A stretch of DNA of 38,588 bases from a virus. Positions 16,031 through 23,219 of this stretch are shown here, piece by piece. The notes under the pieces are model-generated. The model was not told the DNA's origin and searched no databases. It was given only the letters and a program-made list of their open reading frames with translations. Numbering within the stretch: the first letter of the stretch is position 1; each line of letters starts with the position of its first letter. A program made the translations under genes and the position numbers. Location: positions 1 to 38,588 of the IMG/VR virus record IMGVR_UViG_3300032132_000020; one strand, given 5' to 3'.

Positions 16031-16064
16031 ATCAATCCTTTCTTAATTAATAATGCAGGTTCGC

Positions 16065-16646
16065 TAGATGTATTAGTAGGTGTGTGTTTATACTCACGTT
16101 TTACAGCAGACTTTAACTGCTACCATACCTGCAATAAATAAATAAGGCGAACTCTGCGTACGGTTTAATTTACTGGTTCATTAAGCTGTTTCAACCCCGT
16201 CGGGAATTGCTCATAAGTGTTGAATAATTTCAATGAATCCACTTAATCACATTTATTTTACACGCTTCAACACCTTAAAAATTTTGGAAGAGGTCTGACC
16301 TTTTTCACATCCCATAAGTACTAATGGATACTACATCTGGCAATACCTAGCCTTAAATTTATAGACTGAATCATTACAGGGCAGTCCACAGCGTGTACTT
16401 TGCTATGCTTTACGAGTTCTATGATTCAGCCTAAATTATTTGATTATCCGTACACGACTAGTGCTTTTCAACCTAGTCCACCACTCTATTGCAAAGGTGT
16501 CCTCCCAAAACTTCGGACAATTCGGGCGTCGATGCTTCTCCACTACTCTGCTTTACGCAGTTCCCTCTGGATAATCAATATTAGTATAGATGCAATCAAC
16601 CTCATAACTTATGTCTGCCAACTTAGTCAATTATCAACTACATCTA
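16065..16646 (-). ncRNA. Large structured RNA candidate, about 582 nt (ROOL/GOLLD-like)
   Basis: No credible frame spans 16031-16676. Read on the minus strand, the region folds into long-range helices. The closing helix pairs 16639-16646 with 16065-16072 (8 bp). Others are 16569-16578 with 16440-16449 (10 bp), 16421-16429 with 16366-16374 (9 bp), and hairpins 16473-16478/16456-16461, 16214-16219/16240-16245, 16548-16551/16557-16560 and 16105-16109/16117-16121. Pair 16504-16509/16521-16526 contains a G-U pair that becomes A-C on the plus strand, supporting minus-strand transcription in line with both flanking genes. The length is near the ~580 nt I recall for ROOL RNAs, which also occur in phages. 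Family membership is untested. Confidence 0.7.
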
Positions 16647-16676
16647 TATAATTTCACCTAATTGAAAATAATGGTG

Positions 16677-22168: not shown

Positions 22169-22209
22169 AATTATACTCCTTTGATTAATAATTCTATGAT
22201 TAAAAATTA

Positions 22210-22679
22210 GAGGGTCTCAGATAGGAACAACCCTATCATCTCTTGGGAGCAATTGACTCTGTCGAGTTCACGGCTCAATATATTTCTAGTTTCCCAGACC
22301 GACTACAATGATGTGATTCCCCAATCAAGGGCATCATCCGTTGACGAGACCACAATGGTCAATATATCAGTATCTAGGCTGCTAATGCCAACCAGTACCT
22401 ATTGATACTAAGAGTCCGACACATAGAAGTTATTCCCTTTCGGGTTACTTGATTATGTATGGCACAAGAAGACCTCACCAGTGAAAGTTACTTCACTTCA
22501 CAACCTTTCGGATGTCCTCTCTTGAGTTAGTGCGATAACACACAGTCCATTGACTAAATGCTATCTTGGTGAGTGCACGTCAGAACCTATGGGTCAGTCC
22601 TTCTTTAGAACGTGCGTTGAGTAAACTCCCGTACTAGACAACATCTGCATAATGCTGAATAGCCTTAGAGAGACCCCTC
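22210..22679 (-). ncRNA. Large structured RNA candidate, about 470 nt
   Basis: A gene-free stretch with very dense structure. The closing helix pairs 22670-22679 with 22210-22218 (9 bp, one bulge). Internal elements: 22610-22615/22575-22580; 22539-22543/22530-22534, whose G-U pair exists only on the minus strand; a hairpin at 22500-22515 with a GAAA loop; 22480-22497 (6 bp); a three-tier hairpin at 22421-22458 capped by CCC-GAAA-GGG; 22369-22374/22404-22409; 22348-22360; 22308-22313/22332-22337; and a terminal hairpin 22220-22237 (6 bp). GNRA loops appear only when the minus strand is read, the direction of both neighbouring genes. It does not resemble RNase P, tmRNA or 6S RNA. GOLLD-like or novel; unverified. 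Confidence 0.75.
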
Positions 22680-22721
22680 ATATTGAAATTTTGTTGGTTG
22701 AATGACCATGTTATATGATAT

Positions 22722-22812
22722 TTGTATGATACAAGTAGTTATAGGGTTAAGTGATTATTGCATAATTCTAGTACACCAATTGGTTGTATGCTACAAATAA
22801 CCCTAATAACTA
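22722..22812. promoter_or_regulatory. Paired 13-bp palindromes and inverted TAGTTAT-AGGGTTA arms (operator or origin candidate)
   Basis: Two near-identical palindromes, TTGTATGATACAA (22722-22734) and TTGTATGCTACAA (22784-22796), lie 62 bp centre to centre, about six helical turns. Each abuts one arm of an imperfect inverted repeat: TAGTTATAGGGTTA (22736-22749) and TAACCCTAATAACTA (22798-22812). The array sits between the gene at 22878 and the 470-nt RNA, in an untranslated 198-base gap. Symmetry and helical phasing suggest a dimeric protein binding cooperatively, to control the RNA or to start replication. No consensus promoter is clear. No binding protein is identified. Confidence 0.45.
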
Positions 22813-22877
22813 GTTAATTCCGATACGCAAGCTGCTGTTTCCAATTGCGAGCGTAGCGGCGATGCACAAGGTAAGTA

Positions 22878-23219
22878 CTAAGACTTACCCTTTTGTTTGG
22901 CTAACCGGGCTTCAATACCATCTAACCTTTGTAATAGAGTATCAATTGCTGATGCCTCTACTTCTTCAGGTTTGTCATCCTTCTGAAGCTGTGCTAACAT
23001 TAGTAACGTACCGAAATCAAGACCACCTACACCGGCACTATTGAAGGCGCCTACATCTTTGACAATGTTACTAGCGAAGACAGGTCTGCCCCTTCTAGCA
23101 GCTACTGCGAAGTTCTGACTAATGGTAGCCAGTGCTACGGCCTTCATCTCGGCCTTACCTAAGACAGGCTCTGAGTTAGTCATTTGCTCTGTGATTAACT
23201 TTACTATATCCATTTGCAT
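22878..23219 (-). CDS. First gene of the leftward operon, hypothetical (113 aa)
   Basis: AAGGAG lies just before the ATG. The protein is small, alanine and leucine rich (AEMKAVALATISQNFAVAA), has an ARRGRP basic patch and ends in a coiled-coil-like helix (IDTLLQRLDGIEARLAKQK). Its DNA is visibly richer in G and C than the rest of the operon, with different codon choice, suggesting high expression or separate origin. The stop codon lies in the loop of a perfect 7-bp hairpin (22870-22889). As the first early product it could be an immediate-early host-takeover factor; that is inference. Confidence 0.55.
   Translation of the reverse strand: MQMDIVKLITEQMTNSEPVLGKAEMKAVALATISQNFAVAARRGRPVFASNIVKDVGAFNSAGVGGLDFGTLLMLAQLQKDDKPEEVEASAIDTLLQRLDGIEARLAKQKGKS

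Follow-up and report, generated by a model that had tools for sequence, protein, structure and literature searches.

Among the structured RNAs of phages, the closest to the one described here are GOLLD, a large ornate RNA of more than 800 nt that forms cages (a 14-mer RNA-only cage), and ROOL, a large ornate phage or prophage RNA of unknown function. The put RNA of phage HK022 is a much shorter element than the RNA studied here. GOLLD is described as accumulating in lytic growth of an L. brevis prophage and yet being dispensable for phage production (PMC7567579, citing Harris and Breaker 2018). Phages ICP1 and K produce abundant long non-coding RNAs of unknown role, which their authors have compared with GOLLD and ROOL (PMC7567579, PMC9241854). 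Kretsch et al. described palindrome switching at the homomeric kissing loops of OLE (L9.3) and noted a comparable switch of a dinucleotide in GOLLD (PMC12286853). HK022 put, as part of the nascent early transcript, needs no phage proteins for its action (PMC9378689).

The RNA analysed here lies in a 38.6-kb contig (the window, 38,588 nt, the whole stretch of DNA analysed) of an uncultured tailed phage that encodes a P22-type portal, an SU10-type capsid protein, a DnaB helicase and a terminase. Its nearest cultured phages are distant (best cultured terminases ~23–26% identity), its capsid protein has no match among 50,697 phage records, and its relatives suggest that it is probably marine. Like GOLLD, the RNA is large and ornate, contains GNRA loops, lacks a protein frame and lies at the same phage locus and on the same strand, but it is only ~475 nt long; unlike GOLLD and ROOL, it has no tRNA in its neighbourhood. 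With OLE it shares a variable loop that retains a 4-nt palindrome, but it occurs in a phage context and has no Rfam match. Like put, it is a structured RNA predicted to be part of an early phage transcript and inferred to work independently of phage proteins, whereas its length, its many GNRA loops, its exchangeability and its position, not always directly behind the promoter, set it apart. As a long non-coding phage RNA of unknown role it is also comparable with the transcripts of ICP1 and phage K; in sequence the comparison extends only to blastn against all phage records, which gave no match. Feature coordinates are collected in Table 1.

Table 1. Features of the RNA locus in the window and in related contigs (L numbers)
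Feature	Position	Strand	Remarks
Structured RNA	22207..22684	-	5' end near 22684, 3' end near 22207; covarying consensus from four sequences, fifth as check; MFE z -3.65
Closing helix P1, 5' arm GAGGG	22675..22679	-	partner of 22210-22214; two pairs show compensatory G-C/A-U changes
Closing helix P1, 3' arm CCCTC	22210..22214	-	partner of 22675-22679
Apical loop UAUGCAG	22645..22651	-	palindrome UGCA 22646-22649; candidate self-kissing loop
GAAA tetraloop	22506..22509	-	GCAA in L075, GUAAA in L056/L089
GAAA tetraloop	22438..22441	-	invariant; stem varies CCC/GGG to CUC/GAG
GAAA tetraloop	22290..22293	-	invariant; stem varies G-C to U-A
Conserved promoter-like block	22685..22877	-	74-87% identity in relatives with unrelated downstream RNA
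Palindrome in block, TTGTAGCATACAA	22784-22796
Palindrome in block, TTGTATCATACAA	22722-22734
Following element, TATAACATGG	22706-22715
113-aa conserved gene	22878..23219	-	no known family; upstream of RNA locus
First gene 3' of RNA, 52 aa	22010..22168	-	CxxC pairs; ribosome-binding site AAAGGAG 22176-22182
Second ORF-poor region	16031..16676	-	same operon; contains recurrent module M1, also in L014, L019, L030
Divergent GOLLD	L087:5018-5462, L068:3707-4128, L080:5166-5602	-	homologous early RNA gap
Module M2, ~50 nt	L007:12798-12860, L095:7330-7392, L096:2351-2413, L055:335-397 (-), L097:8502-8564

In the window the RNA is positioned directly behind the promoter-like block, at the head of a leftward operon, and stops just ahead of the ribosome-binding site of the first gene. 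The operon consists of minus-strand genes from 22168 down to 8241, including replication and recombination genes, and from this gene content we infer that it is early. That the block acts as a promoter is likewise an inference, and a good sigma-70 consensus was not found within it.

A reading of the window made from sequence alone had placed a large structured RNA at 22210–22679 and had seen its GAAA tetraloops and a G-U pair on the minus strand only. These coordinates hold to within a few nucleotides, the covarying helices extending from 22679 to 22210 on that strand, and the strand assignment is confirmed. Measured against dinucleotide shuffles, the minimum free energy (MFE) of the whole element was more extreme on the minus strand than on the plus strand (z = -3.65 versus -1.54), and the consensus energy was -157.8 kcal/mol compared with -112.1 kcal/mol. 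Shuffled alignments folded at -82.2 +/- 5.1, which corresponds to a z of -14.7 for the real alignment. The same reading had described a density of structure far above that of the surroundings; 200-nt local windows do not single out the element, whereas the full-length test and, decisively, the comparative test do.

Homologues were found in four further phage contigs, full-length in L056, L075 and L089 (84–86% nucleotide identity) and truncated by the contig end in L100 (90% identity to the window RNA). Including the window, only five sequences are known, of which two are almost the same and one is incomplete. The structure was derived from the window, L056, L075 and L089, with L100 left out. 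In the plain MAFFT alignment, without any correction, 19 consensus pairs are preserved through two-sided changes. After three short segments and both ends were corrected by hand, the curated alignment supports 156 pairs, with 99.2% of cells paired and 27 pairs doubly compensated. Sliding the structure by 1–3 columns left only 1–3 double-changed pairs, and column-shuffled alignments gave a mean of 3.2 (maximum 9). Hand correction is biased towards the structure, and the cleanest test is therefore L100, independent of the derivation, in which all 44 of the 44 covered pairs are intact. This sequence also adds new compensations in helices of low variation, such as C-G replaced by U-A or by G-C. 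L089 and L056, which differ by 3% overall, show one stem changed as a block with its pairing restored. The secondary structure is conserved by covariation, and it is the minus strand that carries it.

Protein coding was rejected, with no conserved frame and no triplet pattern of indels: across the four aligned homologues, the RNA strand stays free of stop codons for 42 aa at most, and the alignment gaps are mostly of 1–2 nt. Absence of covariation, or a conserved frame, would have refuted the original proposal of a large structured RNA; both were examined and neither was found. The RNA is long, non-coding, multi-branched and covarying, as expected of the general class of large ornate structured RNAs. 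No transcript data are available, and its existence as a separate molecule has not been shown.

The consensus is composed of a closing helix near both ends, from which several helices branch, and it ends in 13 hairpin loops, where about ten hairpins had been counted from the sequence. The terminal helix recognized there, with nine pairs and one bulge, is real and covaries, but it is not one continuous helix; the consensus has GAGGG(G)U/A-CCCUC together with the helices CUCUC/GGGAG and CUCA/UGAG. Three GAAA tetraloops are present in the window copy rather than two. The retention of three GAAA-type loops despite changing stems suggests, from general knowledge of RNA, that they make tertiary contacts. 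All full-length homologues have a palindrome of 4 nt in one variable apical loop (GGCC in L056/L089 and CAUG in L075 in place of the window's UGCA) and in no other loop. A palindrome is expected by chance in roughly one in five loops of 6–7 nt, and the register of the L075 palindrome is shifted; self-kissing at this loop is a lead only.

Covariance-model searches place the RNA outside the known families. Scans of the region against Rfam 15 gave no match at the gathering score or at E<=5, and this holds equally for group I introns, group II introns and HEARO. The GOLLD model, which represents the conserved 3' region, had no match at E<=10 in the window, L056, L075, L089 or L097; the same model finds GOLLD (RF02032) in L050:5532-5949 (-), on the early strand, with 177.5 bits and above the cutoff, so that it works within this clade. 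The ROOL model (RF03087) likewise had no match in the window (E<=10) or the clade, with the qualification that no positive-control genome responded. A blastn search with the RNA against 50,697 phage records returned no relatives. An exact 18-base pattern was present at four loci in genome contigs that share only those bases, and both these and an apparent relative in L094 were set aside as chance matches. Neither the RNA family nor an exchangeable, GOLLD-containing cassette locus was described in the literature searched, which did not cover subscription papers and most preprints. That the window RNA represents a new structured RNA family is, in our judgement, close to certain. The sequence-only reading had left the choice between a GOLLD/ROOL-like RNA and a new class; the model tests support a new family, and the analogy with GOLLD proved stronger than could have been known from the window alone.

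Full-length divergent GOLLD matches were detected below the cutoff in three further relatives, L087 (141 bits), L068 (119 bits) and L080 (117 bits), with E values from 3e-41 to 1e-33; they would extend the GOLLD family. A covarying region in L068 and L080, considered as a further new family, was rejected when it proved to be divergent GOLLD. GOLLD is thus found at the locus in L050 and, in divergent form, in L087, L068 and L080, and in none of the carriers of the window-type RNA, from which we conclude that the two are alternative residents of one locus. The window RNA is absent from Rfam 15 and is a positional counterpart of GOLLD, not a GOLLD.

The contents of the locus are exchanged in the manner of cassettes. 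In the nearest relatives that have it (L010, L013, L014 and L017; terminase 96, 95, 95 and 93% amino acid identity), the promoter-like block is common to all and the downstream flank is shared by most, with unrelated non-coding sequence between them; in L010 the intervening sequence also contains a short ORF. Homologues of the RNA are instead found in distant phages, with terminases of 76–77% amino acid identity, and the RNA identity (84–90%) exceeds the nucleotide identity of the terminase gene in the same phages (72–74%). On these two grounds we conclude that the RNA moves as a cassette. L100 and L050 share an upstream RNA array (90% identity over 710 nt), after which L100 continues with the window-type RNA, the junction coinciding with its 5' boundary, and L050 with other modules and GOLLD. 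Between L056 and L089, which are otherwise 98% identical in these regions, one closed hairpin of ~128 nt (L056:3713-3840, -) has been cleanly gained or lost. The RNA is preceded by a coding gene in L075, by another folded RNA in L056 and by the promoter-like block in the window, and no protein neighbour is common to its carriers; this variable position and the lack of a shared protein neighbour argue for action in trans. We regard it as highly likely that the locus is an exchangeable site for RNA cassettes.

The explanation that we prefer overall, with moderate confidence, is that the window RNA belongs to a new family and is one of several interchangeable cargoes of a hypervariable locus in a clade of probably marine, uncultured phages, GOLLD being another. 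As to function, we lean towards a trans-acting, protein-independent RNA scaffold, which is an inference. The RNA would be co-transcribed with the leftward operon and then freed by processing; GNRA contacts would compact it into a particle, a stable scaffold with tertiary folding, which may perhaps oligomerize through self-association of the palindromic apical loop, for which there are no oligomer data. It would have no dedicated protein partner, would work in trans, and may serve an accessory, host-dependent task early in infection, such as host take-over or counter-defence. Such tasks select for exchange, and a role of this kind would explain why the RNA is swapped among close relatives; the published lytic accumulation and dispensability of GOLLD fit an accessory role. 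Counter-defence or host take-over as the actual purpose is inferred only from mobility and position, with no defence target known, and remains tentative, short of an even chance.

The RNA could instead act in cis, as a leader that modifies its own RNA polymerase in the manner of put or that protects or times the downstream mRNA, with leaders differing from phage to phage. Its placement in the window, with the promoter-like block before it and the first gene of a long operon after it, is that of a leader, and the put RNA offers a precedent (PMC9378689). The position relative to the promoter, however, fits in the window and not in L075 or L056, where the gene or the other folded RNA comes first; a length of ~475 nt with several GNRA loops far exceeds the needs of a leader, and GOLLD occupies the same place in relatives. 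A cis role is unlikely by our assessment, and it is not excluded.

It is also possible, if rather improbable, that assembly is itself the function, the RNA forming a GOLLD- or ROOL-like cage or oligomer that encloses or presents host or phage molecules. Four relatives carry GOLLD or divergent GOLLD at this locus, which is consistent with this reading, as is the apical-loop palindrome kept through UGCA, GGCC and CAUG, which recalls the kissing-loop switching of OLE (PMC12286853). Against a cage, palindromes in three such loops have a ~1% probability by chance and the one in L075 is out of register, the RNA is smaller than ROOL or GOLLD, and there are no three-dimensional data. A self-spreading, intron-like or MITE-like mobile element is very unlikely: the observed movement between phages with breakpoints at the closing helix and the precise gain or loss of a closed hairpin module speak for one, but no group I, group II or HEARO match was found in Rfam, no nuclease gene is adjacent, no gene is interrupted, the conserved flanks suggest homologous exchange, and selection acts on the interior helices. 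A chance fold in non-coding DNA or in decayed coding sequence, for which only the unremarkable 200-nt z-scores could be cited, is refuted by the covariation (27 compensated pairs and an intact fifth sequence), alongside the missing frame and the non-triplet indels, and can be dismissed.

With the new family and GOLLD as exchangeable cargoes, the shared slot gives GOLLD a comparative framework, where the role of GOLLD- and ROOL-like phage RNAs has been an open question. The question becomes which selection makes phages swap large folded RNAs beside replication genes. A broader proposal, that self-assembling RNA machines replace one another at the one locus, with the window-type RNA, GOLLD and several undescribed RNAs all acting as RNA-only devices, is doubtful at present; if true, these phages would trade RNA devices as others trade genes for anti-defence proteins.

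In the terminase clade, most of the contigs that extend to the locus contain 0.5–2 kb of ORF-poor sequence at this place, which in the majority folds better than shuffles on the early strand. Genes were called with a simple codon-usage script, and some gaps, with z near or above zero, are missed genes. The early strand has 52 GNRA tetraloops with four closing pairs, the opposite strand 9; with the window-type family and duplicates removed the counts are 41 and 9 (p = 5.6e-6), compared with 13 and 9 in the coding control. Scans of ~30 kb of early-strand folded sequence against Rfam detected only GOLLD and one tRNA, and blastn with two more of the clade's RNA regions found no relatives. The clade apparently offers many RNA structures not yet described.

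Recurrent pieces reappear in new contexts as modules M1–M6. M2 forms a pseudoknot in which bases in the inner hairpin loop pair with a segment upstream of the outer helix; pairing is complete in five sequences (all 16 pairs kept), with four double-changed pairs. A common AT-rich, RNase E-like linker between modules was rejected (the k-mer is not enriched), as were tRNA-like modules suspected by eye, for which ARAGORN and Rfam gave nothing except a tRNA-Tyr (GTA) at L044:1914-1996 (-). This is the only tRNA gene in the scanned related contigs and lies in another non-coding gap. M3 is a probable H-type pseudoknot, recognized by eye and uncounted, in the cassette regions of L023, L050, L055, L059 and L075; it pairs UGAUU/AAUCA or UGAGU/ACUCA together with ACCA/UGGU, and its contexts differ. 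The second ORF-poor region of the window has shuffled pieces in common with L014, L019, L021 and L030, and the evidence for structure is weaker there. Four further long folded regions without an Rfam match, all on the minus strand (L037:3189-4140, L076:1-1248, L063:2081-3065 and L023:2350-3447), have z from -3 to -10 and are candidates for large RNA families.
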